A stretch of DNA of 42,330 nt from Bathymodiolus heckerae thiotrophic gill symbiont. Lineage in GTDB: Bacteria > Pseudomonadota > Gammaproteobacteria > PS1 > Pseudothioglobaceae. Within the stretch, counting starts at the first letter, position 1. Every line of letters starts with the position of its first letter. The stretch is taken from NCBI RefSeq assembly GCF_900128515.1, contig NZ_FQTP01000002.1:1-42330 (forward strand), written 5' to 3'. Positions 1-34,126 of this stretch are shown piece after piece. The notes beneath the pieces are model-generated. The model made no database searches, was not told where the DNA came from, and was given only the letters and a program-made list of their open reading frames with translations. Both the position numbers and the translations under genes were made by a program.

Positions 1-529
1 CTAGTGATGCACGCTTATGTTTAGATGAATCTTCATAGTCAAAAAACGCATTGATACCTGCAATGGCACGCTGATCTTCTACTAGGTAGCGCTGTCCAAT
101 ACCTAGGTTAATGGTGTTGCGACGCTCACCTTCGTTCTCACCAGAAAACACTGAGCCTTGGACGTAAGTTAGCTCTTGAATGTCAGTATTGAATTCACTA
201 ATAGGCTGAATGGTATCGATACTATAGCTTGGCTTATCTGATTCAATACCCTTGATGCTGATTGAAGTTCTACCTTTGCCAAAGTTATTAATAAGCTCGT
301 TGGCTTGGGTGTTGATATAGCCCTCAGTAGTACTGATGGCTTTATTGACTATTTGAGATTGTATTTGCTCGCCTGCTTGGCGAGCATCAACGGCGGTAGT
401 GTTGAGTGATAGGGTTAGTAATAAAAATACAAAAAGCTGTTTAAGCTTGGTTAGTGCACTAGGGAGTGTTTCCCCCCCGCCTAGAGATGTGAGTGCTTGG
501 TTAGTTTTTTTGTTTTTTAATGTTGTCAT
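1..529 (-). CDS. Inverse autotransporter (intimin/invasin-type) outer-membrane protein, N-terminal part, truncated by the window edge
   Basis: The frame is open from an ATG at 529 to base 1 (176 codons). It starts with a long leader: a polar stretch of about 27 residues, then a hydrophobic signal (KQLFVFLLLTLSLNTTAVDA). This is followed by the start of a beta-barrel domain. The barrel shows family marks: a NELINNFGKGRTSISI segment, a GERRNTINLGIGQRYL segment, and the hallmark GINAFFDYEDSSKHKR just before the cut. In this family the N-terminal barrel sits in the outer membrane and exports C-terminal Ig-like or adhesin domains, which lie outside the window. Such proteins usually act in attachment to host cells or other bacteria. 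A run of seven G on the coding strand lies near codons 17-19, ahead of the signal core. I am confident of the domain; passenger and partner are unknown. Confidence 0.82.
   Translation of the reverse strand, partial: MTTLKNKKTNQALTSLGGGETLPSALTKLKQLFVFLLLTLSLNTTAVDARQAGEQIQSQIVNKAISTTEGYINTQANELINNFGKGRTSISIKGIESDKPSYSIDTIQPISEFNTDIQELTYVQGSVFSGENEGERRNTINLGIGQRYLVEDQRAIAGINAFFDYEDSSKHKRASL
472..478 (-). repeat. G7 homopolymer tract (C7 on the plus strand) inside the 5' end of the inverse autotransporter gene
   Basis: Seven C on the plus strand read as seven G in the coding strand, in codons for Gly-Gly-Gly about 17 residues after the start. A second run, C6 at 571-576, lies about 42 bases upstream of the start codon. 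Poly-G tracts at these positions can vary in length by slipped-strand mispairing and switch surface proteins on and off. At the present length the frame is open. Confidence 0.6.
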
Positions 530-663
530 TTTAGTTAAAAATTAAATAGTAATTCGCATTCTACCACGTACCCCCCTTGCAGTGCAAGATTATGAATACC
601 TCAATCCAAAAATAGAAACTTAAATTCACATCATAAACGCACCACCTAGTGTAACTGCAAAGC

Positions 664-729
664 GTGTATTTTTTTACTTGGCCGTAGGTCAAGGATTTGT
701 GCCCTGTGAGTAAAAAGAAAAAAATACAC
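664..729. repeat. 12-bp perfect inverted repeat
   Basis: GTGTATTTTTTT at 664-675 is the exact reverse complement of AAAAAAATACAC at 718-729, with 42 bases between the arms. The arms are AT-rich with a T run, so it could act as a terminator-like structure. It may also be flanking sequence of the decayed IS30 element just to its right. No gene is supported inside it. Confidence 0.6.
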
Positions 730-730
730 T

Positions 731-758
731 TAATCTTTGAATTTAGGCTCAAAGATTA
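731..758. repeat. 10-bp perfect hairpin at the left end of the IS30 remnant
   Basis: TAATCTTTGA (731-740) and TCAAAGATTA (749-758) pair perfectly around an 8-base loop. The segment TGAATTTAGGCTCA inside it resembles the reverse complement of GAGTCGAATTCA just after the transposase stop (about 1635-1647). Part of it may therefore be the left terminal inverted repeat of the IS. Confidence 0.5.
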
Positions 759-804
759 GCCGGTGTTTTATAATCATCGGTCCTCGCTAAAAAACAGGTG
801 GATT

Positions 805-1636
805 ATGTACAAACAACTAACCCTTGAGCAAAGGCATTATATCAATATTGCTCGTAAGAATGATGAATCTATAAGAACAATTGCTAAGGATTTAAACGTC
901 TCGCACACAACCATATCAAGAGAGATAAGGCGTAATACTGGAGGACGAGGCTATCGTTATGTTCAAGCTGATAACTTTGCACAGCAAAGACATTAAGACA
1001 AACGTAAGCTTGTCAAACTTGATGATAGTTGTAAAAAATTGACTCGTAATTGTTTAAAGCTTGATTGGTCACCTGAACAAGTCTGTGGCTGGCTTGACAC
1101 TAACAATATCCTTAAACTTCACCATGAGAGTATTTATCGTTACCTACTCAAAGATAAATTGGGTGGCGGTAATTTGTATAAATATTTACGCCATCAAGGT
1201 AGGCCTTATCGCAAGCGTTATGGCTATGTAAACAATCGCACAGGCATTCCCAATCGAGTTGATATAGACGAGCGTAGCGAGGCTGCTAATAACCAAGATG
1301 AATTTGGGCATTTTGAGGCTGACACTATCATTGGTAAAGCACATCAAGGTGTTATTGTTACTCTGGATGAGCGCATATCAAAGTTAAGACTAGCCTACCC
1401 ACTGAATAGTAAAACACAAAGAGGGGGTTAGTGCTGCCATAAGCACTCTACTCAAACCAATTAAAGATCTTGTGCGCTCTATTACCTATGACAATGGCAA
1501 GGAATTTGTTGGACATGAGCAAGTAAATACATTGAATTCTAGACCAAGAAAGTGTTTAGGATTTAAAACACCTTGCCAGGTGTTTTTAGAGATGACGGGT
1601 GTGGATGCTCGTCAATTGGAAGTGGTGCACTTATGA
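805..1636 (+). pseudogene. IS30-family transposase pseudogene (stop codon, frameshift and internal deletion)
   Basis: The protein starts MYKQLTLEQRHYINIARK, followed by a helix-turn-helix (IRTIAKDLNVSHTTISREI), typical of IS30 transposases. Three lesions are visible. An in-frame TAA stands at 994-996, and the same frame continues directly after it. A frameshift lies in the G5 run at 1423-1427. A deletion joins GHEQVNT to LNSRPRKCLGF near 1530, removing roughly 50 residues by comparison with the family. The first two catalytic acids remain (FEADTIIG, TYDNGKEF), but the block carrying the third (the Glu of a WERG-NEN type motif) is gone. The enzyme must be inactive. Confidence 0.88.
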
Positions 1637-1729
1637 GTCGAATTCACCGTGTTTAAAGTTTACATGAATAAACATAATAAAACCAAAGTATTGGCGGTCA
1701 CACAATACAGTAGCTATTGAGGAGCGGAC

Positions 1730-2746
1730 ATGAATATTACAAACTTAAAATCCATTATTTTTATTATATTGATATTTTCCAATATCACTTATGCACAACA
1801 ACCAGAAAAAACCGGTGCTATTACTGGTGGCGCACCGTACACAATGTTGCCTTGGTTTAAAGCCAGCTTTTTAGAAATTGCTGATGATGTTGATGAGGCA
1901 AAAGAAGAGGATAAACACGTTATGTTGTTTTTTTATTTGAGTGAATGTCCTTATTACAATCAGATGATAAAGAATTTTGAAAAGCCATTTCTTAAAGAGT
2001 TTATCCAACAACACTTTGATGTGATTGCTATTAATATTCTTGGCAGTAAAGAAGTGGTCATTACTGAAGATGTATCTTTAACTGAAAAAGAGCTAGCCAC
2101 TAAAGTTGGTGTGCAATACACACCAACCATTGTTTTCCTGAATCAAAACAATGAAGCCGTAGCCCGAACTAACGGCTATCGCAAGCCTGAGAAATTTAAA
2201 CAGGTTTTGGCTTATGTGCACGATAAAGCGTACAAAGATTCAACTTTAGCCCAATATATTGAAAAATCTAAAGAAACCGGCAGTTACCAATTGCAAAGCA
2301 ATGTGACGTTTAAACAGTTTATTGATTTTTCTATAATCAAAAGACCATTGGCCATTATCTTTGAAGATAAAAATTGTGATTCTTGTGCATATTTTCATAA
2401 CACAACACTTGAAGATGAGGCTGTAATTAATGAATTTAGAGCATTTAAAGTAGTGCGCTTTGATGCTGACTCAACTCAAACTATTATTGACAATAAAGGC
2501 AATAAAACCACGCCTAAAGATTGGGCTAAACAACTCAAACTTAACTATAGGCCTGACATTATCTTATTTGATAAAGGCCGTGAAATTACCCGCATTGACG
2601 GACTCTTATACAAGTTTCACTTTCAAGAAGTGTTGCGTTATGTGAGTGGTGGCTCTTATCAAGAATTTAAAACTTACAATGCTTATCCTGTAGAAAGGCA
2701 GGAAGAATTGCTCGAGCAAGGTATTGATATTGATATTAGTAAGTAG
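1730..2746 (+). CDS. Exported protein with two thioredoxin-fold domains (SoxW-like)
   Basis: The 338-residue protein begins with a signal peptide (about residues 1-22, ending in ITYA). A thioredoxin-like domain follows, with the active-site region SECPYYNQM (Cys73, Tyr76) and a cis-Pro loop (VQYTPTIVF, Pro132). A second related domain carries a true CxxC (Cys216, Cys219 in KNCDSC) and a YRPDIILF strand. It probably works in the periplasm as a thiol reductase or isomerase. SoxW-type relatives occur beside sulfur-oxidation genes and receive electrons from DsbD/CcdA-type proteins; a DsbD lies at 30930. In domain one the second Cys of the usual CPYC is Tyr, which could arise from one base change (TGC to TAC). 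Start: ATG 1730, preceded by GAGGAG. Confidence 0.75.
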   Translation: MNITNLKSIIFIILIFSNITYAQQPEKTGAITGGAPYTMLPWFKASFLEIADDVDEAKEEDKHVMLFFYLSECPYYNQMIKNFEKPFLKEFIQQHFDVIAINILGSKEVVITEDVSLTEKELATKVGVQYTPTIVFLNQNNEAVARTNGYRKPEKFKQVLAYVHDKAYKDSTLAQYIEKSKETGSYQLQSNVTFKQFIDFSIIKRPLAIIFEDKNCDSCAYFHNTTLEDEAVINEFRAFKVVRFDADSTQTIIDNKGNKTTPKDWAKQLKLNYRPDIILFDKGREITRIDGLLYKFHFQEVLRYVSGGSYQEFKTYNAYPVERQEELLEQGIDIDISK

Positions 2747-2830
2747 GTTAATTAGTAGTGGCCTTATTAAAAAATAAATTGCGCATAAAGCACTAATTAG
2801 AGAATGACTTAATTATAAAAAGGAAAATAA

Positions 2831-3577
2831 ATGGAAAACTTAGAAAGCCCATATAGTAAAGAGCAGTTAAATTCAAAAGATGTACAAAAAAATTTGAGAT
2901 TCATTTTAAATTTAGAAGAATCTATTAAGAGCATGAATGTATTCAATCATCCGTTACTTATTAAAATGTCTAAAGGATTATTTGAAAAAGAATTTGTTGC
3001 TTTTGTACATGCACAATTTTCAAAGCATATTCGAGTTTTTACCGCTGAATTATCTAATTTATCGGGAGTGGCGCCAGATATCGAAAGTAGATTTATGTTG
3101 TTTGATAATCTATATGAAGAAATGGGAAGAGGTAAATTATATAACTGCCATTACAATCTTTATTTGTCAATGCCTGATTCTATTGGATACGATTTAAAAA
3201 GATAACAGAGCCGCCAAATCTATACACAATAGAATTGTTGGGTGATGGCTTGTCTAATGCTATCAGCAAGGGTTCGTTTTCAACAGCGCTGGCTTGGCTT
3301 GGATCTGGTGGTGAATTGACCATACCTAATAATTTCCCTTTGTTAAAAAAAATCGTTAATTTCCAAGTTTGAAAATAATAATGTAAATTATGCATTTTTT
3401 GATAGACATGGTGATAGAGATCAAATGTACAATGACGATGCTAATTTATTGCTGGCATTGCATATAGATCCATCTGATTATAAAACTATTGAAATAGAAG
3501 TAAAGAAATCTCTTATTTTAAGAGGCTATGTCTGGGATGAATTGTTACAAATGTACGAGACAAAATCATGGAGATAG
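2831..3577 (+). pseudogene. Heme-oxygenase-like (diiron redox enzyme type) protein, two compensating frameshifts
   Basis: Starts at ATG 2831 after AAGGAAAA. Frame 1 gives 124 residues and stops at 3203-3205. Homologous-looking sequence continues in another frame from the A5 tract at about 3196-3200, then returns to the first frame at the A8 tract at about 3345-3352, ending at TAG 3575-3577. The joined product is about 248 residues, normal for this fold. Likely metal-binding positions are Glu96/Glu97 and His107 in LYEEMGRG...YNCH, and a distal FFDRHGDRDQMY segment. Relatives are non-heme iron oxygenases of the TENA/HO-like fold (CADD, UndA, SznF central domain), several acting in small-molecule biosynthesis. 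In the distal H-x3-D-x2-H pattern the last His is Tyr. It may be dead, rescued by slippage at the A tracts, or an assembly artefact. The substrate is unknown. Confidence 0.62.
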
Positions 3578-3581
3578 CATA

Positions 3582-3878
3582 GTGTTTCCATGGATCGATA
3601 AATTATTTGATCATGATAATCTTGGCACAATAGGTGCGATTGTTACAAAAGTAAATGATTCACAATATCATACTGATGTTAGAGGGCCGACATGCCCAGG
3701 GTATCTTCTTTCAATAAATAGAGAGGTCGATAAGCTAGATAAAAATTCAAAAATAACCTTATTAGCCAGCTATTTTCCATGTGAAAGTGACGTAAAAATT
3801 TGGTGCAATAGTAAAGGGTATACTTTTTTAAAGACTACGATACAAGAAGAACATTTTGAAATAAATATTATCAATTAA
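3582..3878 (+). CDS. TusA/SirA-like sulfur-carrier family protein, atypical
   Basis: About 98 residues. The core TDVRGPTCPGYLLSINREVD, followed by SDVKIWCNSKGYTFLKT and a closing FEINI strand, fits the TusA fold: D-x-R-G-xx-C-P near the start, then D-I/V-xx-W and a G-[YH]-x-hydrophobic turn. TusA carries persulfide sulfur on the Cys of its CPxP motif. Here the Cys is kept (Cys38) but the motif reads CPGY, so the second Pro is missing. I chose GTG 3582 because GGAG sits 8 bases upstream and it begins just after the preceding gene ends. ATGs at 3528 and 3537 in the same frame would overlap that gene. The neighbours suggest a role in a small biosynthetic locus rather than tRNA thiolation. Confidence 0.5.
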   Translation: MFPWIDKLFDHDNLGTIGAIVTKVNDSQYHTDVRGPTCPGYLLSINREVDKLDKNSKITLLASYFPCESDVKIWCNSKGYTFLKTTIQEEHFEINIIN

Positions 3879-4118
3879 TTTTTTTAAAGCTGGATTCGCA
3901 ACTATCACGAATTTTGAGATAGAGCTATATGGCTCTGTTTAATACTTCAGGTTTACTAAATCTCATCTAGTGGGAACTATATCAATATACCCAATATCAC
4001 GCTGTAATCAGAGTATAAATAGTATATTCGCACTGAAAATTATGATTTACGTATTAAATTGATACCAATATTCAGAATACAGTCATAGTAAATAGTTATG
4101 TTTCAAAAGGAGAGGCTA

Positions 4119-4850
4119 ATGCCAAAAGTTTTAAACTTGCAAGAGGCAAGAGAACAAAAAGAGCAGTGGAAAAATGTAGTTTTTGAAGAATTCTATACCA
4201 CAATGACAAATGAGAATGAAAAGTTCCCGTGTGTTTTTGGCACAGCAGGTGTCAAAAACCAGCAAGTAAGATATTATTTTTCAAATTCGCAAGCTAGAGA
4301 TCCAGATATTTACCCCTTAGCAATAGTCTTAGAAGAATATGTAAAAAATTCTAGAACATACGGGAAAAATACATCTCTGGTGGTGTTCTTTAAGCCAGAC
4401 TCGAAAATACGCTCAATACAAAATTATGAGCGAGATTTTTGGTCTATATTACAGAGATTAAACTATATTGATTCATCTAGTTGGCCAAAAGAGATTTCAG
4501 AAGATCCGGAGCATTACCTCTGGGAATTCTCATTCTCTGAAGAGCCTATTTTTGTTGTATGCAATAACCCAGCTCACAAGTTAAGACGAAGCAGATATGC
4601 AGGTACTTTTATGATTACGCTTCAACCGCGCTGGGTATTTGAATTCTTACAAAAACCAGCAGGGAGAAAATCTAAAAAAATAGTAAGAGAAATACTAAAA
4701 TCATATGATGATATTGATGTGCATCCAGAATTAGGAACTTATGGAGATAAAAAAAATAAAGAATGGTTACAATACTATCTTTCAGATACAAATGAAACAA
4801 ATAACAAAAAATGCCCATTTCAATTAAAAGAGAAGCAACATGATCGATAA
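4119..4850 (+). CDS. YqcI/YcgG family protein
   Basis: The 243-residue protein carries the whole family pattern in order: FPCVFGTAGVKNQQVRYYF near the N-terminus, W-x-LQRLNYID in the middle, then DPEHYLWEFSFSEEPIFVVC, NNPAHKLRRSRYAGTFMI and LQPRWVFEFL. The length fits the family. From memory, some relatives (DcsA-, AglA- or GntA-type proteins) are heme-dependent N-hydroxylases of arginine-like substrates in natural-product pathways, while most members have no assigned role. The reaction here is not known. Start: ATG 4119, seven bases after AAGGAGAG; an in-frame ATG at 4098 lacks this site. Its 3' end overlaps the cupin gene by 11 bases, so the two are probably translated together. The 240 bases before it hold no gene. 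Confidence 0.75.
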   Translation: MPKVLNLQEAREQKEQWKNVVFEEFYTTMTNENEKFPCVFGTAGVKNQQVRYYFSNSQARDPDIYPLAIVLEEYVKNSRTYGKNTSLVVFFKPDSKIRSIQNYERDFWSILQRLNYIDSSSWPKEISEDPEHYLWEFSFSEEPIFVVCNNPAHKLRRSRYAGTFMITLQPRWVFEFLQKPAGRKSKKIVREILKSYDDIDVHPELGTYGDKKNKEWLQYYLSDTNETNNKKCPFQLKEKQHDR

Positions 4851-5160
4851 AGTGGTCTTACAAAAAGGAAGTCCTGTAACAATGGAGCAGGCAGTTATGA
4901 TATTGTTACCCGAAACAGGCTCTGTTGAAGTGCAAAGAGATGCCTCCTGTCGAGAACATAAAGCACACACACATTCAACAAATGAAACGTTATTAATTAT
5001 TAGTGGAGAGATAATATTTACAGTTGATGGTGAGAATATCACCTGCACTTCTGGAGATAGAATTTTATTAACCTCTGAAACAGTTCACTCATCGGTTGCT
5101 GGAAAAAATGGTTGTTTATACATTATCGCATTTGAGCTTAAGGATAATAAAAATGATTAA
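4840..5160 (+). CDS. Small single-domain cupin protein
   Basis: The 106-residue protein is one beta-barrel. Cupin motif 1 is HKAHTHSTNETLLIISGEI (His, His, Glu metal ligands). Motif 2 is SGDRILLTSETVHSSV (Pro replaced by Ser, His kept). Such proteins bind a metal and may be small oxygenases, isomerases or binding proteins; the sequence does not tell which. It overlaps the YqcI/YcgG gene at its start and the transporter gene at its end (8 bases from ATG 5153), so all three form one translationally linked unit. Confidence 0.75.
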   Translation: MIDKVVLQKGSPVTMEQAVMILLPETGSVEVQRDASCREHKAHTHSTNETLLIISGEIIFTVDGENITCTSGDRILLTSETVHSSVAGKNGCLYIIAFELKDNKND

Positions 5161-6421
5161 TAATAAGTTAGAAAAGTCATTAAGCATTAGCCAAGCCGTA
5201 GGCTTGGGGATAACCATCGTTGTTGGAAGCGGTCTTTTGTTGCTTCCTGGTTTAGCTTATCAAGATGCTGGTGCATCGTCAATTTATGTTTGGGTTATTT
5301 GCGCTTTACTGGTTATTCCTTTACTTGTAATATTTTCCGCATTAGGTGCAAAATACCCAACTGCTGGAGGAGTTGCAGGGTTTATGCAAAATGTATTTTC
5401 TAGGCACATATCTAGTGCAACAGAAGTGATGTTGCTGGGTACTTTTGGCTTGGGTATTCCGGCAATTGCTCTAACTGGTAGTTATTATGTAAATACATTA
5501 ATTTTTGTAGATGTTCAATTTGAAATTATTACTCTGACTATATCGCTATTAATGATATTTGCTGCATTTACAGTAAACTATTTGGGCGCGGCTATTTCAG
5601 GAAATATACAAAAATATTTAGCAATAACTCTAGTTTTGGCATTACTATTAATACCAATATTGTCACTTGTATTTGTAAGTGAATATAAAGGAGAAGGAAT
5701 AAACAGAATTTCAAATATTGAAATAAGTAATATTTTCCCTTTATTAGGCATGGTGTTTTTTGCTTATACAGGCTGGGAAATGTTATCCTTTACAATTGAG
5801 GAGTACAAGAATCCGAAGCGAGACTACCCCATTTCAGTTGCACTTAGTTTTTTTATAGTGATTATTTTGTATTTTCTTTTAGTAATATCTATACAGTTGA
5901 TTGTCCCCATTGATGATGTATTGCTAGGTACAGCCCCTTTATCGGCTTTGGCACAACAGGTATTTGGCAGTATGGCTGGAAATTTAGTTGGAGTACTGTC
6001 ATTTATTATTATCTTAGCAAACCTTATTGGTGCAATTTGGGCTGCATCACGACTAGTATTTTCATCAGCTAGAGAGGGTTTGCTTCCGGCGTCAATTGCC
6101 AAGTTAAGTGTAAATAAAGTGCCTAGAGCATCGCTCGTAGTTACATGTTTGTTTTTTTCAACAGTGCTAATTTTAAACTATTTTAATATTTTGAAAGTTA
6201 ATGATTTGTTGAGGCTTACAGGTCAAAACTTCTTTATTTTATACGGCATGGCGGTTTTAGCTTATATAAAAATATCTGAAACAAAAAAACAAAAAATATT
6301 TGGCATTATCTCCCTTATGATTGTTGTAATAACAATGGGTACATTTGGTGTTGAGTTGCTGTACCCTATTGTTTTGCTTAGTTTTGGGTATTTTATGAGT
6401 AAATACAAATCGTGGAAATAA
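5153..6421 (+). CDS. APC-superfamily amino-acid transporter, YjeH-like exporter type
   Basis: The 422-residue integral membrane protein has about 12 hydrophobic segments. It opens with SLSISQAVGLGITIVVGSG, the substrate-site helix of the APC superfamily (GxG in TM1). The next segment (AKYPTAGGVAGFMQNVFSRH) resembles YjeH, which in E. coli exports methionine and branched-chain amino acids. Start: ATG 5153, eight bases inside the end of the cupin gene with AAGGAT just upstream; an in-frame start at 5096 would lie deep inside the cupin gene. Coupling to two possible biosynthetic genes suggests it exports an amino-acid-like product. That is inference; uptake is also possible. Confidence 0.8.
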   Translation: MINNKLEKSLSISQAVGLGITIVVGSGLLLLPGLAYQDAGASSIYVWVICALLVIPLLVIFSALGAKYPTAGGVAGFMQNVFSRHISSATEVMLLGTFGLGIPAIALTGSYYVNTLIFVDVQFEIITLTISLLMIFAAFTVNYLGAAISGNIQKYLAITLVLALLLIPILSLVFVSEYKGEGINRISNIEISNIFPLLGMVFFAYTGWEMLSFTIEEYKNPKRDYPISVALSFFIVIILYFLLVISIQLIVPIDDVLLGTAPLSALAQQVFGSMAGNLVGVLSFIIILANLIGAIWAASRLVFSSAREGLLPASIAKLSVNKVPRASLVVTCLFFSTVLILNYFNILKVNDLLRLTGQNFFILYGMAVLAYIKISETKKQKIFGIISLMIVVITMGTFGVELLYPIVLLSFGYFMSKYKSWK

Positions 6422-6462
6422 AAACATAGCAAACCATTCTTGTCGACCGCTAACGCGTTGGC

Positions 6463-6499
6463 TGAATTCAAGCATTATGTATACTGACACTTGAATTCA
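6463..6499. repeat. 10-bp perfect inverted repeat TGAATTCAAG / CTTGAATTCA
   Basis: The arms lie at 6463-6472 and 6490-6499, separated by 17 bases. They begin 41 bases after the transporter stop. No T run follows, so a rho-independent terminator is unlikely. The motif TTGAATTCA resembles the end sequence near the IS30 remnant (GAATTCAC at 1640-1647), so an old IS end is possible. Confidence 0.5.
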
Positions 6500-6560
6500 C
6501 ATAATTAGCCCACATGTAATTAAAGCGCTCAGCAATAATACTAGGCGCCATTAAAGGGGA

Positions 6561-6770
6561 ATGCTAAGGGAGCCAAACCAGGACCAAAAAGAACTGCTAA
6601 ATCGACTGGGAAGCCAGATAAGCGTCAACGAGATAATGAAGACACTCCCGGGAATACGCCATCACTTAAGCCTCACAGGCACAAGAAAGGTGATTAACAC
6701 CACATTAGCAACATCAATCGCTATACTCCTTGGAGATGGCGGTGTTATGTGTAAAAAACTAGGAGAGTAA
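6561..6770 (+). other. Possible gene fragment of unknown origin
   Basis: A 69-codon frame starts at ATG 6561. I do not recognise its product. Another frame over the first two thirds reads as a basic, proline-rich sequence (AKGAKPGPKRTAKSTGKPDK and onward to a stop near 6690), which looks like a linker or a transposase tail but matches nothing I can name. Neither frame has a convincing ribosome binding site. It is probably the eroded end of a mobile element. Confidence 0.25.
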
Positions 6771-6835
6771 ATCCTAGTGGGCAAGCACTCATCACACTTT
6801 ATCTTTAAATATCACAGACTAAAGTTTGTTATAAT

Positions 6836-6899
6836 TTAATGGGTCATGACAACTTAAGCATATTTAAAATCATGTTAAAGTACCGTTATGACCCTTAAT
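6836..6899. repeat. 54-bp MITE-like element with 10-bp terminal inverted repeats and TTAAT direct repeats
   Basis: GGGTCATGAC (6841-6850) and GTTATGACCC (6885-6894) are inverted with one mismatch. TTAAT flanks the pair on both sides in direct orientation (6836-6840 and 6895-6899), as a target-site duplication would. A TATAAT at 6830-6835 lies just outside. It is too small to code for anything. It could be a miniature element, an excision footprint or chance. Confidence 0.4.
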
Positions 6900-6968
6900 A
6901 ATAATTGCTATGCATTTTACACCGCAACGATACAAAAAGGCTGTGTGATAATAAGGCTATGCCACCGG

Positions 6969-9353
6969 TTACTTTTTCTTGGCTGGTTTTTTAGCGACCT
7001 TACTTATTGCTTTTTTAGTGGTGGCTTTTTTAGGTGCTGCTTTTTTGCGTTTTTTAGTTTTAGGCTTTAGCTTGCCAGAAACAGCTTTCTTGCATTCTTC
7101 AAGGGTAAGATCAGCAGGATCTTTATCGCCAAAAACTTTCTTAATGGTAATATTTTTTTGACCCTTGCCTTTCTTTTTACCATTCCAAACATAAGGGCCA
7201 AAACGACCATTCAGGACTTGGATTTCACTATCATCGAAAGTTTTAATAATACGTTCAGCATCAAATTTTTCTTTAGCTGCAATTAGTTCCAAGGCTGTTT
7301 CTAACGTTACCTCCTCAGGAGAAACCTCTTTTAACGAAACATACTTTTTACCGTATTGGATATAAGGGCCAAAACGCCCATAGTTCGCCTTAATGACGCC
7401 AAAGTCATCAGTTTCACCAACGGTTCTAGGCATATTGAATAATTCTAAGGCTTCGTCTAAGGTGATAGTTTCAATATCTAATGTGCCTCTAAGTGCGGCG
7501 AAAGTAGGCTTATCTTCGTCATCCTTGTGGCCAATTTGTGCGAATGCACCATAACGACCAAAACGAACACTAACCGGTTTATCAGATTTCGGATCTTTAC
7601 CGAGCTCACGCATACCATGAGTTTCTTCTCTTGAAATATCAGCAGCAGCTACGATTTGAGCGTGAAATGGCTCATAAAAATTCTTAACAACATTTTTCCA
7701 AGGTACATTTTTTGTCGCAACCGTATCAAAATCGGATTCTAATTTTGCAGTAAATTCGTAATCAATAATATTGCTGAAGTTCTTTACCAAGAAATCGTTC
7801 AATAAATAAGCAACATTGGTTGGGAACAATTTATTTTTTTCCGCACCCGTAGTCTCACTTGGTTTTGACTCTACAACTTTACCTTCTTCAATTTCAATTA
7901 ACTCATACTCACGTTCAAAACCCTCTCTGGTTTCTTTGGTAACATAGTTTCGATCTTGCACGGTTGATACCATGGTGGCAAACGTAGAAGGCCTGCCAAT
8001 ACCCATTTCTTCAATTTTTTTAACTAATGAAGCTTCGGTATATCTTGGTTTAGCACGTGAAAAACTTTCCCTTGCAGAGAAACTGGCTAACGTTAATTGT
8101 TCACCTTCTTGCAAATCAGGCAATAACTTATCATCGGCTGATAAGTAATCGTAAACCTTTAAAAATCCAGGGAAAATTAGAATTTCGCCATTTGCCAAAA
8201 ATATTTCTTGCGCATTTGATAGTCTAATTTTTATTTGTGTTTTTTGTAATTTAGCATCACTCATCTGAGATGCCAACGTGCGCTTATAAATCAGACTATA
8301 GAGTCGAGCTGTTTGTTCGTCTACGCCATAAATACTTGACTTGGTTAAGTCAGTTGGGCGAATAGCTTCATGCGCTTCTTGAGCGCCAGAATCCTTGGTT
8401 TTAAAACGTCTTTCACTATGATATTCAGCACCAAACTCTTGCTCAATCACTTTACCTGCCGCCTCAATAGCTGTTTCAGACAAAGTAAATGAGTCTGTTC
8501 TCATGTAGGTAATTGAACCTTCACGATATAGATTTTGTGCAATAGTCATGGTCTGTTTAACTGAAAAACCAAGCTTTTGCGACGCCTCTTGCTGCAATGT
8601 AGAAGTAATAAATGGTGCTTTTGGAGAGCGCTTAGATGGCTTCTTTTCAATAGACGAAACAGTTAAATCAGATGATAGAAGTTTGGTTGCAAATGCCAAA
8701 GCCTCATCTTTTGAATCAAAATCTTTGTTTAACTTAACATCAACCACTTCGCCATTACCATTAACCAATTCTGCCTTGACTTTATAAGTCGAAATAGAAG
8801 TATGTTTAGTGATTTCACGTTCTCTCTCAACCACCAGTCGCATCACTGGAGATTGAACACGTCCTGCTGAACGCGCACCTGAAATCTTGCGCCAAAGCAC
8901 TGGAGAGATTTCAAAACCTACTAGTCGATCAATAATACGACGCGCTTGCTGTGCATCAACTAAATCATAGTCTACGGTTCTTGGCTTAACAATCGCGTTA
9001 GTAATTGCACCTTTGGTAATTTCGTGAAAAACGATTCTAGGGGTGTCTCTTGGTAATTTTAATGCTTCTAACAAATGCCAAGCAATGGCCTCACCCTCAC
9101 GATCCTCGTCCGTTGCAAGATAAATTTTTTCTGCAGTTTTAACGGCTTTGCGCAATTCTGCAACAACTTTCTTTTTGTCAGCTGTTACTTCATAAGTTGG
9201 CTCAAAGTTGTTCTCAATGTCAATGCCCATGTTTTTCTTTGGCATATCGCGGATATGGCCGATACTAGACTTAACCGCATAATCTTTGCCTAGAAATTTT
9301 TCAATCGTCTTGGCCTTGGCAGGAGACTCGACAATAACTAAATTCTTAGCCAT
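6969..9353 (-). CDS. topA: DNA topoisomerase I
   Basis: This type IA topoisomerase relaxes negative supercoils through a tyrosine-DNA link. Over 794 residues it shows the Toprim domain (VIVESPAKAKTIEKFLG with Glu9; DEDREGEAIAWH with Asp82, Asp84 and Glu86) and the catalytic Tyr283 in GSITYMRTDS. Its C-terminal part lacks the Cys4 zinc ribbons of E. coli TopA. Instead it has three repeats with an RFGRYGAF / NYGRFGPYIQYG / NGRFGPYVWNG core (topoisomerase C-terminal repeat), followed by a strongly basic Lys/Ala tail of about 35 residues. It follows smg and dprA in the usual gammaproteobacterial order; its start touches the last base of the smg stop. Start: ATG at 9353. Confidence 0.97.
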   Translation of the reverse strand: MAKNLVIVESPAKAKTIEKFLGKDYAVKSSIGHIRDMPKKNMGIDIENNFEPTYEVTADKKKVVAELRKAVKTAEKIYLATDEDREGEAIAWHLLEALKLPRDTPRIVFHEITKGAITNAIVKPRTVDYDLVDAQQARRIIDRLVGFEISPVLWRKISGARSAGRVQSPVMRLVVEREREITKHTSISTYKVKAELVNGNGEVVDVKLNKDFDSKDEALAFATKLLSSDLTVSSIEKKPSKRSPKAPFITSTLQQEASQKLGFSVKQTMTIAQNLYREGSITYMRTDSFTLSETAIEAAGKVIEQEFGAEYHSERRFKTKDSGAQEAHEAIRPTDLTKSSIYGVDEQTARLYSLIYKRTLASQMSDAKLQKTQIKIRLSNAQEIFLANGEILIFPGFLKVYDYLSADDKLLPDLQEGEQLTLASFSARESFSRAKPRYTEASLVKKIEEMGIGRPSTFATMVSTVQDRNYVTKETREGFEREYELIEIEEGKVVESKPSETTGAEKNKLFPTNVAYLLNDFLVKNFSNIIDYEFTAKLESDFDTVATKNVPWKNVVKNFYEPFHAQIVAAADISREETHGMRELGKDPKSDKPVSVRFGRYGAFAQIGHKDDEDKPTFAALRGTLDIETITLDEALELFNMPRTVGETDDFGVIKANYGRFGPYIQYGKKYVSLKEVSPEEVTLETALELIAAKEKFDAERIIKTFDDSEIQVLNGRFGPYVWNGKKKGKGQKNITIKKVFGDKDPADLTLEECKKAVSGKLKPKTKKRKKAAPKKATTKKAISKVAKKPAKKK

Positions 9354-9844
9354 TATTGTAAAGTACGTTTTTCGTCAAGAAAAACAATGGACTCAAGCCA
9401 TTGCGCTGATATCTCACCTTCGACACTATTACCTAGCACCATCATTACCACCCATTTAAGATCTTCTAAGTCAATTTTTGCTTCGCCCAATGACATCACT
9501 TGTTCAATAATCATTTCGCGCTGATTAGCATCTAGCTGGCCAATATTTTCCATGAATAATAAAAATCCACGTGATTTTGAATCCAATTTTTTCTGCTCAG
9601 CTTCCGAATAAATTCGCATGCTTGATTGATATACAGTACTAAAAGGCTTGATCTTTCCATCTTGCAAAGCGGCTATATTTTCAAGCCAATTTAATGCCTT
9701 ATCAATGCCAATAACATCAAAACCTGCATCAGATAAATGAGCTTTTAATTCAATATCATCGATTTCATGGGCGTCATTATGTTCTGCCTCTTCGAAAAGA
9801 TAATCAAACATATAAGTTAAAACATCTAGAATATTATGCGTCAT
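9353..9844 (-). CDS. smg: Smg family protein (DUF494)
   Basis: The 163-residue protein has the family opening (ILDVLTYMFDYLFEEAE) and the conserved end region (DLKWVVMMVLGNSVEG). Smg is a small helical protein found between dprA and topA in many gammaproteobacteria; its biochemical role is unsettled. Start ATG 9844 overlaps the dprA stop by four bases, and its stop shares a base with the topA start, so the three genes form one transcript. Confidence 0.92.
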   Translation of the reverse strand: MTHNILDVLTYMFDYLFEEAEHNDAHEIDDIELKAHLSDAGFDVIGIDKALNWLENIAALQDGKIKPFSTVYQSSMRIYSEAEQKKLDSKSRGFLLFMENIGQLDANQREMIIEQVMSLGEAKIDLEDLKWVVMMVLGNSVEGEISAQWLESIVFLDEKRTLQ

Positions 9845-10935
9845 ATTGGTTTATTTAATATATAGCCTTGCGAGCTGGTTCTTTCAATCTGGCCGTTAAG
9901 CTCTAGTAACAACAACTCTTGTGTTACTAGTTGCGGGCTAAGTTTGGTTTTTTCAACTAATTGATCAACCGTCAAAGCCTCATAGCTGAGACATTTTAAT
10001 ACGTTAAACCCTGTTTTGTCCACCTGTTTTGTTGATTGACTGGTTTTTATGGATGATATATTACCCAATAACCCCTCGGGCAACTCATTAATAATGTCAT
10101 TAATACTACTGGTTAATTTTGCGCCTTGCTTGATTAAATCATGACAACCTTCAGCTAATGGATTGTGGATTGAACTAGGAATGGCGAATACCTCCTTTCC
10201 TTGATCAGCAGCTAGTTTTGCAGTAATCATGGTGCCACTTTTAATGCTAGCCTCTACCACTAGTGTACCTAAGCTCAATCCACTAATAATACGATTACGC
10301 CTTGGAAAATTACTTGCAATTGGCGCTGTTCCAATACAAAATTCAGAAACCAATGCGCCCTGTAGTGAAATTTGATGCGCTAAGGATTTGTGCTTAGCAG
10401 GATAAATTCTATCCAGCCCTGTACCACAAACCGCAATGGTGTTTACTTGCGCTTCTAATGCACCAATATGCGCCTGCGCATCAATACCGCTAGCCATGCC
10501 TGAAGTAATAACCAGCCCAAGATTTGCTAGCTGATTAGCAAATTGATATGCATTTTGCTTGCCGCCTGTGCTCGGATTTCTACTACCAACAATAGCAAGC
10601 TGCGGCTTGGACAAACAAAAAATATCGCCTCTGACATATAATAAAGGTGGTGGATCAGCAATGGTTTTTAGTTGTGATGGATAATTCTCATCAATCAATG
10701 TTAGTATGTGACAATCATCCCCCTCAAGCCAATCAAGATCAGTCTGCACTAAGGATGTATCTATTGTGGTCAAATATTCTAAAGTGGGCTTGCGAAATAA
10801 TCCCGAGTTGAGCCTTTCAGTATGACTTGAAGAAAACACCTGTTGTGGCGACTCAAAATATTGCAAGGCTTTGTAAAATGTTTTAACACCTAAATGTGGC
10901 GCCTTTAATAACAACAACCAATAAACTAAATCCAT
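9841..10935 (-). CDS. dprA: DNA-processing protein DprA (Smf)
   Basis: DprA binds incoming single-stranded DNA during transformation and loads RecA on it. The 364-residue protein has an N-terminal SAM/HhH-like part, then the Rossmann core: LAIVGSRNPSTGGKQNAYQF, TSGMASGIDAQAHIGAL, TIAVCGTGLDRIYP, then SEFCIGTAPIASNFPRRNRI, and VEASIKSGTMITAKLA with DQGKEVFAIP. A C-terminal winged-helix segment (YEALTVDQLVEKTKLSP) completes the family length. It is the first gene of the dprA-smg-topA unit. Its start is 153 bases from the divergent rpmH. Confidence 0.95.
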   Translation of the reverse strand: MDLVYWLLLLKAPHLGVKTFYKALQYFESPQQVFSSSHTERLNSGLFRKPTLEYLTTIDTSLVQTDLDWLEGDDCHILTLIDENYPSQLKTIADPPPLLYVRGDIFCLSKPQLAIVGSRNPSTGGKQNAYQFANQLANLGLVITSGMASGIDAQAHIGALEAQVNTIAVCGTGLDRIYPAKHKSLAHQISLQGALVSEFCIGTAPIASNFPRRNRIISGLSLGTLVVEASIKSGTMITAKLAADQGKEVFAIPSSIHNPLAEGCHDLIKQGAKLTSSINDIINELPEGLLGNISSIKTSQSTKQVDKTGFNVLKCLSYEALTVDQLVEKTKLSPQLVTQELLLLELNGQIERTSSQGYILNKPI

Positions 10936-30058: not shown

Positions 30059-30087
30059 TTGTAAACACCACATCTCTATGATATAAT
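30059..30087 (+). promoter_or_regulatory. Sigma70 promoter of adk
   Basis: TTGTAA (30059-30064), a 17-base spacer and a perfect TATAAT (30082-30087) lie about 75 bases before the adk start. Confidence 0.62.
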
Positions 30088-30161
30088 TTTTGCTCAATTT
30101 TGACCTTAAAGATTAAAACGGTAAGGTTGAATTTTTTATTAACTTATTCCAAGGAAACACT

Positions 30162-30800
30162 ATGAAATTAATTCTTTTAGGTGCACCAGGCGCAGGCAAG
30201 GGCACAGTTGCAAAATTACTAACTAAGCTTGACGGTTCAGTTCAAATCTCTACAGGCGATATTTTGCGTGGTGCAGTTGCAACAGGTACAGAGCTAGGCA
30301 AACAAGCACAAGCAGCAATGAAAGCAGGTGACTTAGTATCTGACGATTTAATCATGGGCATTATGGAAGAGCGTTTACAAGAAGATGATTGTAAATCTGG
30401 CTACTTATTAGACGGCTTCCCGCGCACAATTCCACAAGCAGAAGCTTTAAAAGCACTACTTGAAAAAATGGGAGAAAAATTAGACGCAGCTGTTGAAATC
30501 GATGTTCCACGTGATGTGATTCTTGATCGTTTAACAACACGTCGTACTTGTGAAGCTTGTGGTGCAATTTACAACACCAAGTCTAACCCGACTAAAGTTG
30601 AAGGCGTATGTGACAAATGTGGTGGTGCCGCCGTACAACGTGAAGATGAAACTGAAGAGGCAATCAGCAATCGTTTGAATGTTTACAACGATCAAACCGC
30701 ACCTTTAGTAGGCTTCTATAAAGAAGAAGGCTTGTTACTTAGCGTTGACGCTACTTCGTCTCAAGCGGTGATTGATGCGATTACAACAAGAATCGGCTAA
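30162..30800 (+). CDS. adk: Adenylate kinase, zinc-lid type
   Basis: It interconverts AMP, ADP and ATP. The 212-residue protein has the P-loop LGAPGAGKGT, the AMP-site region QISTGDILR and the long form with a LID domain. The LID holds two CxxC pairs (Cys130, Cys133, Cys150, Cys153), so it should bind zinc, whereas the E. coli enzyme uses a polar network at these sites. Start: ATG 30162 after AAGGAAA. It has its own promoter and terminator. Confidence 0.97.
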   Translation: MKLILLGAPGAGKGTVAKLLTKLDGSVQISTGDILRGAVATGTELGKQAQAAMKAGDLVSDDLIMGIMEERLQEDDCKSGYLLDGFPRTIPQAEALKALLEKMGEKLDAAVEIDVPRDVILDRLTTRRTCEACGAIYNTKSNPTKVEGVCDKCGGAAVQREDETEEAISNRLNVYNDQTAPLVGFYKEEGLLLSVDATSSQAVIDAITTRIG

Positions 30801-30831
30801 TATTTGCTAGCCGAATAGGTAGCATAAAGCT

Positions 30832-30866
30832 AAAAACCCCAAGTGTGAAAGTGCTTGGGGTTTTTT
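30832..30866 (+). terminator. Rho-independent terminator after adk
   Basis: AAAAACCCCAAG (30832-30843) pairs with CTTGGGGTTTTTT (30854-30866), with a T-rich end. It lies 32 bases after the adk stop and insulates dsbD. Confidence 0.85.
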
Positions 30867-30929
30867 AATGCTTGCTTATAAACCCCAAAATGACTTATAA
30901 TAACTCTAATCATCGTGAGGAGAGATTTC

Positions 30930-33152
30930 ATGAAGCGTTTATTACTGCCTTTATTTTTATTACTGTTATCAACTTTTACTCAAGCTCAGGGCGAACTGCT
31001 GCCGGCTGACAAGGCCTTTGCTTTCAAAGCAAAAGTAGTTAATGATGAAATTGTATTAAGCTGGGATATTGCCAAAGATTATTACCTTTATAAAGAAAAA
31101 ATAAAAATATCAAGTGACTATTCAGATCAACTTGGTGTGGCTAAATTTCCACCCGCAAAAATAAAAAATGATGAATTTTTTGGCAAGATTGGTGTTTACA
31201 GAAATACTGTAGATGTCAAAATTCCAATCTTAAGAGGCAATGCAAACTCATTATTATTAAATGTTACTTTTCAAGGTTGCGCCGATTTAGGCGTTTGCTA
31301 CCCGCCAATTACCAAAACTGCCGCACTAGATATTAGCGCCATGCAAAGGCCTTCACTGGTTGACAATGCTTTTGAATTGTTCTCAAAAGCCAAACAAAGC
31401 GCTCAATCTATTGTTGAAAAAATCACGCCAATCTCTGATGAACCTTTACCTGCAGACGAAGCATTTAAATTTTCAGTCGATGTATTTGAATCAAATACAT
31501 TATTAGTTGCTTGGGATATTCATCCTGAATACTACTTATATCATGATAAATTCTTTATTGATGTCAAAGGTGCAGAAATTGGCAAGGTTGATTTTCCCAA
31601 AGGAAAAATTAAAGATGATCCTTTATTTGGCAAGGTTCAAATTCACAAGGGCAGGTTGGTGCTTGAAGTGCCTTTACGCAATATTAAGAGTCAGAATATT
31701 AGTTTTATTGCCAAATACCAAGGTTGTTGGACGGGTGGCATTTGTTATCCCCCACAAGAGAAAAAGGTTGATTTAGTGTTACCAATACAAGGCTCGTCCA
31801 ATGCGACGAGCACTACTTCAGATGCGATACAATCTGCATTACAGCCCAACGTAGAATTAAACGAAACAGATCAGATTGCAGCCCTACTTCAGCAAGATAA
31901 TTTATTTTGGGTATTAATGAGTTTCTTTGGTTTTGGCTTACTATTATCGCTAACACCTTGTGTATTTCCAATGATTCCGATTTTATCGGGCATTATCGTT
32001 GGTCAAAAAGGTGAAATAACCACGCGCAAAGCACTAATTATGTCGATCGTTTTCGTTTTAGCGATGAGTGTTACTTACTCAATGGCTGGCGTTTTAGCAG
32101 GCTATTTTGGTGAAAATTTACAAGTGTTATTCCAGACACCTTGGATTCTCGCGGTCTTCAGTTTAATTTTTGTGGCACTTGCCTTTTCAATGTTTGGATA
32201 TTACGAAATTCAATTACCAGCTGGCTTACAAAATAAAATTACCAATATTAGTAATAATCAAGAAGGCGGTCATTTAATTGGTGTTGCGATTATGGGATTC
32301 TTATCGGCATTGATTGTCGGCCCTTGTGTGGCGCCGCCATTGGCAGGTGCTCTAATCTACATCGGTCAAACTGGCGATGCTCTGTTAGGTGGATTGTCCT
32401 TGTTTGTAATGAGTTTAGGCATGGGTGCGCCGCTAATCCTAATTGGCGCTGGCGTATCTAAATTGCCACGTGCTGGTGGCTGGATGGATAATGTTAAATA
32501 CATCTTCGGCATCTTGATGTTGGCAGTTGCTATTTGGCTAATTGAGCGCGTTATTCCATCAATCGCCTCATTAGCGCTCTGGGCGGCAATCTTTAGTATT
32601 GCACCAATTGCCATGGGCGTGCTTAACAAACTTGGTGATACACCAAGCGCCTGGATTCGCATCTTTAAAGCTATTGGCTTGCTAGTCATGTTCTACGGAA
32701 TTCTGCTATGGGGTTTGGTGGCTAGAGGTGGTGGCGACATGCTAGCACCACTATCAGGCTGGGGCACGTCAGGCACTCAGGTAGCACAGGTTCATATACA
32801 ATTTGAGAAAATTAAAAGCATTGAAGATTTAGATCAAGCATTGGTTCGCTCTCAAAAGAATAACCAGATTGTCATGCTTGATTTTTATGCTGATTGGTGT
32901 ATCTCTTGTAAAGAGCTCGAACGCTTTGTATTTTCAAACAACAGCGTTGTTGACGCCATGAAAAATGTCATCGCTCTACAAGCTGACGTCACTGCTAACG
33001 ATGCTGTTGATAAAGCATTAATGACTAAGTTTAATATCATCGGTCCGCCAGGGATCTTATTCTTCAAAAATGGTATTGAGCATCGCGGCCAGCGTATTGT
33101 TGGCGAAATTAATGCACAAGGCTATCTTGAGCACCTCAACAAGGTTAAATAA
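30930..33152 (+). CDS. dsbD: Thiol:disulfide interchange protein DsbD with two N-terminal alpha domains
   Basis: DsbD carries electrons from cytoplasmic thioredoxin to periplasmic proteins. The 740-residue protein has a signal peptide (to about residue 20) and two successive alpha domains with the same cysteine pattern (QGCADLGVCYPP, Cys117/Cys123; QGCWTGGICYPP, Cys266/Cys272). An eight-helix membrane domain follows with LTPCVFPMIPIL and VGPCVAPPLAG, then a gamma thioredoxin domain with DWCISCKELE. E. coli DsbD has one alpha domain and is about 565 residues, so the alpha domain is duplicated here. ATG 30930 follows GAGGAGAG; the in-frame GTG at 30915 would place the site inside the gene. A likely partner is the tandem thioredoxin protein at 1730. 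Confidence 0.93.
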   Translation: MKRLLLPLFLLLLSTFTQAQGELLPADKAFAFKAKVVNDEIVLSWDIAKDYYLYKEKIKISSDYSDQLGVAKFPPAKIKNDEFFGKIGVYRNTVDVKIPILRGNANSLLLNVTFQGCADLGVCYPPITKTAALDISAMQRPSLVDNAFELFSKAKQSAQSIVEKITPISDEPLPADEAFKFSVDVFESNTLLVAWDIHPEYYLYHDKFFIDVKGAEIGKVDFPKGKIKDDPLFGKVQIHKGRLVLEVPLRNIKSQNISFIAKYQGCWTGGICYPPQEKKVDLVLPIQGSSNATSTTSDAIQSALQPNVELNETDQIAALLQQDNLFWVLMSFFGFGLLLSLTPCVFPMIPILSGIIVGQKGEITTRKALIMSIVFVLAMSVTYSMAGVLAGYFGENLQVLFQTPWILAVFSLIFVALAFSMFGYYEIQLPAGLQNKITNISNNQEGGHLIGVAIMGFLSALIVGPCVAPPLAGALIYIGQTGDALLGGLSLFVMSLGMGAPLILIGAGVSKLPRAGGWMDNVKYIFGILMLAVAIWLIERVIPSIASLALWAAIFSIAPIAMGVLNKLGDTPSAWIRIFKAIGLLVMFYGILLWGLVARGGGDMLAPLSGWGTSGTQVAQVHIQFEKIKSIEDLDQALVRSQKNNQIVMLDFYADWCISCKELERFVFSNNSVVDAMKNVIALQADVTANDAVDKALMTKFNIIGPPGILFFKNGIEHRGQRIVGEINAQGYLEHLNKVK

Positions 33153-33160
33153 ACACAAAA

Positions 33161-33194
33161 CTTAGTCGCTAAAAGTCAGTCAAAAACGACTAAG
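33161..33194. repeat. 8-bp perfect inverted repeat between dsbD and aroQ
   Basis: CTTAGTCG (33161-33168) and CGACTAAG (33187-33194) pair around an 18-base loop. No T run follows, so it is not a clear terminator. It could be an mRNA structure ahead of aroQ, or chance. Confidence 0.4.
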
Positions 33195-33247
33195 ATGCGT
33201 GATGTTGGTGGTAAAATCATGTTTATTTGAAACTTGTTGTGAGTGTT

Positions 33248-33691
33248 ATGGACATCTTATTACTAAATGGCCCAAATCTAAACATGCTCGGTACACGTGA
33301 GCCAGATCTTTACGGTGCTCAAACACTTGACGATATTGTTAACAACTTAACCAAATTAGCAGCAGATGCAGGTCTTATACTCGAACACCATCAAGACAAT
33401 TCCGAGGTTGGATTGATTGAAAAAATTCACGCAGCAAGTAGCAATGGTACAAAATACATTATGATTAATCCAGCAGCATTCGCACATACCTCCGTTGCGC
33501 TACGTGACGCCTTATTGGCAGTTGGCATTGAATTTACAGAAGTGCACTTGTCTAACGTTTACAAGCGTGAAGATTTCCGTAAAAAATCTTATTTTTCAGA
33601 CATCGCACAAGGCGTTATTTCTGGCTTTGGTTCACAAGGCTATGAATTCGCACTCAGTGCAGCAATTAAACACATTAAATTAAAGGGATAG
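33248..33691 (+). CDS. aroQ: 3-dehydroquinate dehydratase, type II
   Basis: The enzyme performs the third step of the shikimate pathway. The 147-residue protein begins [20 protein letters not shown] with the catalytic Arg17 and Tyr22, has [16 protein letters not shown], and the His in [19 protein letters not shown] 33248 gives the usual length; the in-frame upstream start at 33227 adds seven non-conserved residues. It is followed within 10 bases by accB, a common gammaproteobacterial arrangement. Confidence 0.96.
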
Positions 33692-33697
33692 AAAGAC

Positions 33698-34126
33698 ATG
33701 GACATTCGTAAAGTAAAAAAATTAATGGAATTGCTAGAACAATCTGGCATGGCAGAAATTGAAATTGTCGAGGGTGAAGAATCAGTTCGTATCTCACGCT
33801 ATGGCAATGCGCCTATAGCTACAGCACCAGTAGCAATGGCAGCACCAGTAGCGGTTGTTGAGTCAGCAGTTGACACACCAGCAACTATCAATGGCCACCC
33901 AATCACTTCTCCAATGGTTGGTACTTTTTACGGCTCAGCTTCACCAACTTCTGGTGTATTTGTTTCAGTTGGTCAACATGTTAACCAAGGCGATACAATT
34001 TGTATCATTGAAGCGATGAAAATCATGAACCAAATTGAAGCGGATCAATCAGGCACTGTGACTGAAATCTTATGCAAAGACGGTGATGCTGTTGAATTTG
34101 GTCAAACACTTGTTATTATTCAATGA
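33698..34126 (+). CDS. accB: Biotin carboxyl carrier protein of acetyl-CoA carboxylase
   Basis: The 142-residue protein has the N-terminal helix ([16 protein letters not shown]), an Ala/Pro-rich linker (about residues 38-62) and the biotinyl domain with the biotin attachment Lys108 in [15 protein letters not shown]. It supplies carboxybiotin for malonyl-CoA synthesis. It overlaps accC by four bases (ATGA). Confidence 0.97.

Follow-up and report, generated by a model that had tools for sequence, protein, structure and literature searches.

The window analysed here is a stretch of 42,330 nucleotides (contig NZ_FQTP01000002.1, positions 1 to 42,330) from the thiotrophic gill symbiont of Bathymodiolus heckerae, in which a first-pass annotation had described five head-to-tail genes as a possible biosynthetic cluster. 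We found that the real unit consists of three of these five, coding for a YqcI/YcgG-family protein, a small cupin and an amino-acid permease. They lie on one strand in that order, the overlap first noted for them amounts to 11 and 8 bases in the sequence, and a Pfam scan returned the matching families at the positions previously assigned:

4119..4850, + strand: YqcI/YcgG-family heme-thiolate N-oxygenase (predicted), 243 amino acids (PF08892, E 1.5e-69)
4840..5160, + strand: small stand-alone cupin, 106 amino acids (Cupin_2, E 5e-8)
5153..6421, + strand: APC-superfamily amino-acid permease, YjeH-like, 422 amino acids (AA_permease_2, E 2.7e-34)

The last gene had been called a YjeH-like amino-acid exporter. 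PRK11021 (YjeH) is indeed its best curated model, but the score of 176.9 bits lies under the equivalog cut-off of 284, and we retain the description as a YjeH-like amino-acid permease. Scans for promoters and terminators gave counts near the shuffled means.

We compared the neighbourhood of the YqcI gene in 88 loci, eight from plasmids and 80 from genomes, the latter being the best 80 of 184 relatives obtained by a profile search of named genomes; locus counts refer to records and not to independent events (L048 and L132 cover one region of a single record, and the pairs L044/L094 and L045/L122 are nearly identical). The genome relatives came from an alignment-based profile, and a scan of genome contigs with the single window YqcI protein confirmed none. 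The YqcI gene is fused to a cupin in 11 loci, adjoins a small cupin in 27 and an SznF-type protein in 11 (SznF/StzF being the streptozotocin N-nitrosourea enzyme), and no cupin was found in 39. Among the 38 loci with a fused or adjacent small cupin, a homologous permease gene follows directly downstream on the same strand in 19, and this three-gene linkage exceeds chance. Plasmids of Thioclava, Leisingera and Rhodobacteraceae SC52 carry a divergent Lrp regulator, YqcI, cupin and permease in the window order, and on a plasmid of Rhodoferax antarcticus YqcI and cupin form one 357-amino-acid protein, followed by the permease. Genes near some of the 38 loci code for Lrp (17) and LysE-family proteins (10), nitroreductases (6) and isochorismatase-like proteins (5).

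The nearest relative, at 46% identity, is a YqcI-cupin fusion of Paenibacillus (L069) placed between two ATP-grasp genes and followed by a major facilitator superfamily gene. In a tree obtained by a quick method, this protein and that of the window group together (support 89) inside the small-cupin rows, while the SznF-type rows come together in a single group (support 99) that includes L099 and L107, which were counted as cupin-less in the later tally (L099 has a weak whole-protein match only), and the rows resembling GntA lie far off. A PF08892 search of 398 genomes of the phylum was positive in 22, the window's own included, and nine rows from the other positive genomes fell in this far GntA-like group. 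The loci with an SznF-type protein are actinobacterial, nine of the 11 having non-ribosomal peptide synthetase (NRPS) genes, and NRPS genes accompany the Streptomyces and Frankia relatives. In the Paenibacillus L069, Streptomyces and Frankia loci the product probably serves as a building block, and the surroundings of L069 are what a modified amino acid would lead one to expect.

Some further arrangements deserve mention. Positions 6725-11535 of L069 have the look of a small peptide cluster. In Leisingera L045 and L122 the cassette has genes for an adenylation-domain protein and a tautomerase in its vicinity (about 12300-16240 in L045). On an Acetobacter pasteurianus plasmid (L046, 4144-6855) an IS1380-type element interrupts the YqcI gene, and the cupin open reading frame (ORF) that follows at 6544-6855 is not listed as a gene in the PLSDB table. 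In several haloarchaea (L048/L132, L137, L140, L143) the YqcI gene comes after a sulfotransferase-like and an adenosine-phosphosulfate-kinase-like gene and has no cupin; the product there is perhaps an O-sulfated N-hydroxy compound. Another locus type, also without cupin and present in many Paenibacillus (L108, L109, L112, L113, L117, L119-L121, L124, L126, L130, L131), combines YqcI with LysE, with amidase-like and DUF1989-like genes (identified by eye) and with an APC permease gene in the opposite orientation.

Predicted sites of the N-oxygenase and the small cupin

The YqcI protein scores 234.5 bits with PF08892, against a gathering cut-off of 27. Structure modelling of its heme and substrate sites, advised at first pass, points to a fold of the AglA type: the AlphaFold2 model (predicted local distance difference test, pLDDT, 94.9) has as its only matches in the PDB at E<=0.001 five entries of AglA, the argolaphos arginine N-hydroxylase, whose sandwich fold it shares (Foldseek E 5.4e-18, template-modelling score 0.84). 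Cys38 is the predicted heme ligand, and F145, Q169, R171, F174, E215 and Q218 are the residues that would hold arginine. By alignment with the AglA entry 9ubb, a K225E variant, AglA Cys44, F152, Q177, R179, F182, Q228 and R166 correspond to C38, F145, Q169, R171, F174, Q218 and R159 of the window protein, in which the heme-ligand, propionate and guanidine-pocket positions named for AglA (PMC12866846) are retained. These residues are kept in 28/28 small-cupin-type rows, window included (R179 in 27), and the GntA-like rows have Asn at Q177 in 9/9 and His at R179 in 8/9.

The position of AglA residue 225 is occupied by E215 in the window protein, and is Glu in all small-cupin-type (28/28), SznF-type (10/10) and cupin-less (16/16) rows. 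AglA is described as active on AMPn-Arg but not on free arginine; its K225E variant is described as hydroxylating free arginine at N-delta, a gain in which the Glu holds the amino group in place (PMC12866846). Because the window enzyme has Glu at this position, as in K225E, free L-arginine would be its likeliest substrate. N-hydroxylation of an arginine-like guanidine is, in our estimate, the likely activity of the YqcI protein. ChmN, of the same family, gives both N-delta-hydroxy- and N-delta,N-omega-dihydroxyarginine in vitro (PMC10849742), and by analogy the window enzyme may carry out the second hydroxylation as well.

The model of the small cupin (pLDDT 91.4) has predicted metal ligands H43, H45 and H83, a conserved E49, and Y94 at the place of SznF Tyr459; in an alignment of 36 small cupins, H40, H43, H45, E49, H83 and Y94 are invariant. 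In SznF the N-N step is reported to depend on H407, H409 and H448, with Tyr459 put forward from computation as a proton shuttle (PMC11705231). The spacing from SznF H448 to Tyr459 and from window H83 to Y94 is 11 places in both. A Tyr 11 places after the last His is present in 38/38 small cupins and 11/11 SznF-type neighbours and in 0/29 ordinary Cupin_2 controls, from which nine of 38 segments without His at the compared column had been excluded and among which one is a spurious row of 1.9 bits. The same Tyr is found in MobE of Tistrella mobilis, the tistrellabactin producer, an ORF that we name from its position and its SznF-type cupin; the siderophore of this organism is described as containing arginine-derived graminine (PMC10391617). 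With small-cupin rows defined at >60 bits and SznF-type rows at <30 bits, a model of the SznF-type cupin matches all 38 small cupins, 32 of them at 12.1-23.9 bits, against at most 10.2 in 30 control loci, and the profiles of the two groups match each other with a probability of 94 (E 1.2e-7).

Flanking genes and genomic setting

Four further features surround the cassette:

2831..3571, + strand: remnant of a heme-oxygenase-like (HO-like, CADD-type) gene with two frame changes; outside the cassette
3528..3878, + strand: TusA-like ORF, apparently intact (PF01206, 42.3 bits); outside the cassette
763..1431, + strand: IS30-like transposase remnant, left side (HTH_38, E 2.6e-16, in 763-996; 1039-1431 IS30-like by eye only)
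6425..6895, no strand: repeat-rich stretch reaching to the synteny start (24 own-genome matches, itself included)

The first two were part of the cluster as initially proposed. What had been named an HO-like oxygenase is not intact: the ORF at 2831-3205 is the 124-amino-acid front part of such a gene, ending in a stop at 3205, and by eye the reading can be followed through two further frames as far as about 3571. We regard this gene as a remnant because its front part is under the curated limits (21.5 vs 28.9 bits for PF14518; 30.3 vs 200 for the CADD model TIGR04305) and the downstream pieces match no Pfam family, although the frame break may instead be an assembly error. The TusA-like protein was named correctly, being over the PF01206 cut-off (28.6) as an ordinary family member. 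Neither gene matches any ORF of the 88 YqcI loci at E 0.01, and because of this and of the broken HO-like gene we place both outside the unit. The five-gene grouping is therefore reduced to its last three members, which recur together in other genomes, whereas the first two accompany the cassette nowhere among these loci. The TusA-like gene is matched in 14/144 other genomes searched as relatives, and the YqcI gene in none of those 14; a plasmid search returned one weak Nostoc match for the HO-like protein and none for the TusA-like one. The TusA relatives inspected adjoin other genes, with no HO-like gene recognised there, and no TusA gene is shown at L150, a relative of the HO-like gene. One TusA-like relative in a genome of the same family (L027, 1450-1761) is flanked by two genes whose products look by eye like resistance-nodulation-division transporter proteins.

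To the right, topA (6969-9353) is 90-94% identical to its counterpart in 11 further genomes of the genus. All 11 compared loci align over topA and rightwards from a left end at about 6895, except for one starting at 7053 and another at 7009 with a short additional piece at 6900. The alignments stop at about 6895, and the cassette therefore lies just outside a break of synteny. No YqcI protein was found in the 144 other genomes. The claim that insertion sequence remnants flank the locus holds on the left for the transposase remnant, which we take to belong to the IS30 family; on the right we see pieces of 6425-6860 that are repeated in the symbiont's own genome. From this comparison of sequences we read the cassette as a gained island, horizontally acquired. 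Further rearrangement around the locus is suggested by the gene at 1730-2746, coding for a protein with two thioredoxin-like domains that has relatives in all 12 genomes of the genus: its 68% relative in genome G011 adjoins DNA matching 30077-35188 of the window, and the gene seems to have moved.

A possible pathway and its alternatives

We propose, with moderate confidence, that the locus is a horizontally gained, minimal three-gene cassette for arginine N-oxidation, comprising hydroxylation, N-N bond formation and export. The YqcI protein, acting through a cysteine-ligated heme and supplied with O2 and with electrons by a general reductase of the host, would hydroxylate free L-arginine at N-delta and then at N-omega. 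The cupin, with a three-His metal and a Tyr proton shuttle, would rearrange the dihydroxyguanidine by bonding N-delta to N-omega, to give a graminine-like (diazeniumdiolate or N-nitroso) amino acid, which the permease would carry out of the cell. The early suggestion that an amino-acid or guanidino compound is modified and then exported fits these three genes, with support at the level of the predicted sites, but not the full set of five. Since neither ATP-grasp nor NRPS genes are present among the ORFs of window 1-10000, a free amino acid would be the simplest product. As to direction, LysE-family genes near relatives favour export, and we think it rather probable that the permease exports the product. 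That N-N bond formation follows hydroxylation seems to us about evenly poised. More tentatively, the cassette could be the smallest known N-N bond-forming pathway, in which a heme N-oxygenase and a 106-amino-acid cupin convert free arginine to free graminine or a close relative, which the permease would secrete to serve by itself as a metal chelator or as a nitric-oxide donor, without a peptide assembly line.

Several observations weigh against this proposal. The best match of the cupin in a PDB profile search is the quercetin dioxygenase YxaG (E 3.7e-11, two domains summed), SznF reaching E 0.0027 only, and in the fold ranking SznF comes at places 2-6, tied with unrelated cupins (Z 10.8-11.2 vs 11.3 for YcfD). 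Six of the 38 small cupins score lower with the SznF-type model, the MobE cupin reaches only 11.2 bits with the small-cupin model, and with this same model one of 30 controls (34.4 bits) exceeds the SznF-type domains (28.0-30.9); moreover the controls, chosen as the strongest Cupin_2 matches, lean towards canonical cupins. For stand-alone cupins of this type we know of no activity. Import is also found among APC permeases, the position of AglA K196 is variable among the YqcI proteins, and no Lrp regulator lies near the window cassette, as one does in 17 of the 38 related loci. Finally, the SznF-type cupin protein ChmM is reported as inactive in vitro (PMC10849742).

In one alternative YqcI hydroxylates arginine and the cupin performs another chemistry, either cleaving the product to citrulline or ornithine plus nitric oxide or nitrite, or dehydrating or isomerising it, so that what is exported has no N-N bond. 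The YqcI sites fit this equally, and the cupin has the full canonical metal set including E49, where ChmM-type domains lack Glu, besides its sequence match to quercetin dioxygenase; yet the Tyr at +11 and the SznF-type scores speak for separating these cupins from ordinary ones, and we consider such a chemistry unlikely. The cupin could also be a sensor or stabiliser, N-hydroxyarginine being the end product, exported as an antimetabolite or as an intermediate like that of nitric-oxide synthase. In other loci hydroxylation and export seem to suffice, because LysE accompanies 19 of the 39 YqcI loci in which no cupin was found, but the 11 fusions of cupin and enzyme and the fully conserved metal ligands point to a catalytic partner, and a non-catalytic cupin seems to us very unlikely here.

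An opposite flow, in which the permease imports a guanidino compound that the two enzymes detoxify or catabolise, would agree with a permease family that includes importers and antiporters, with the isochorismatase-like or nitroreductase genes near some related loci, and with the common Lrp-type control; LysE-family exporters near 10/38 loci and the ATP-grasp and NRPS genes beside close relatives speak against it, and it appears quite unlikely to us. A single biosynthetic pathway built from the whole set of five, the reading of the first-pass annotation and one that their head-to-tail arrangement would fit, is hardly credible with a broken HO-like gene and with HO-like and TusA-like genes in 0/88 cassette loci.

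Comparison with known systems

The combination had been thought to have no described pathway, but graminine pathways in which a YqcI/YcgG enzyme is paired with an SznF-type cupin have been published (PMC10849742, PMC9679993). The published pairs serve peptide assembly lines, and our literature searches listed no description of the compact form. If the reading as a smallest N-N bond-forming pathway is true, a fusion would take arginine to an N-N bond within a single protein, and such forms would have spread horizontally through Pseudomonadota and Bacillota. According to PMC10849742, the N-N step of the graminine-enzyme cupins has yet to be reproduced in vitro, with no activity so far for ChmM, and the natural YqcI-cupin fusion and the 106-amino-acid cupin would be small, simple proteins suited to probing this question. 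Graminine is reported to have released nitric oxide with root extract and peroxide (PMC6771848); if the product were free graminine, this chemistry would reach beyond siderophores to one amino acid secreted by itself. Such compact cassettes would escape genome mining that asks for GrbD, GrbE and an NRPS together, as the rules in PMC12971057 do.

Among the other members of the family, GntA, the guanitoxin N-hydroxylase, belongs to the same Pfam family, but GntA-like rows are only 19-25% identical to the window protein; a guanitoxin-type pathway was rejected, as YqcI is far under the GntA cut-off (NF041366, 58.1 vs 145) and the pocket residues differ. AglA has the same fold, heme Cys and guanidine pocket, and differs in having Lys225 where the window enzyme has Glu. 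YjeH, a methionine and branched-chain amino acid transporter, is the nearest curated relative of the permease, which nonetheless remains below its cut-off.

SznF/StzF matches the window cupin at its metal and Tyr positions (H407, H409, H448 and Tyr459 for H43, H45, H83 and Y94), but N-oxygenates with its own diiron HO-like domain, a step for which the window would use a heme enzyme; unlike SznF- and GrbD-type proteins, the window cupin has no HO-like domain in front. A similar pair is found in the graminine (diazeniumdiolate amino acid) modules GrbE/GrbD and ChmN/ChmM, in which a YqcI/YcgG arginine N-oxygenase adjoins an SznF-type cupin protein, with the same heme, arginine and cupin positions. 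There, however, a long protein with a decayed HO-like domain ends in the cupin, and an NRPS takes up the product; in the window the 106-amino-acid cupin is a protein of its own (some relatives have it joined to YqcI), and its neighbour is a permease, not an NRPS. Our verdict is that the cassette represents a compact, NRPS-free pair of graminine-type N-oxygenase and cupin with its own transporter.

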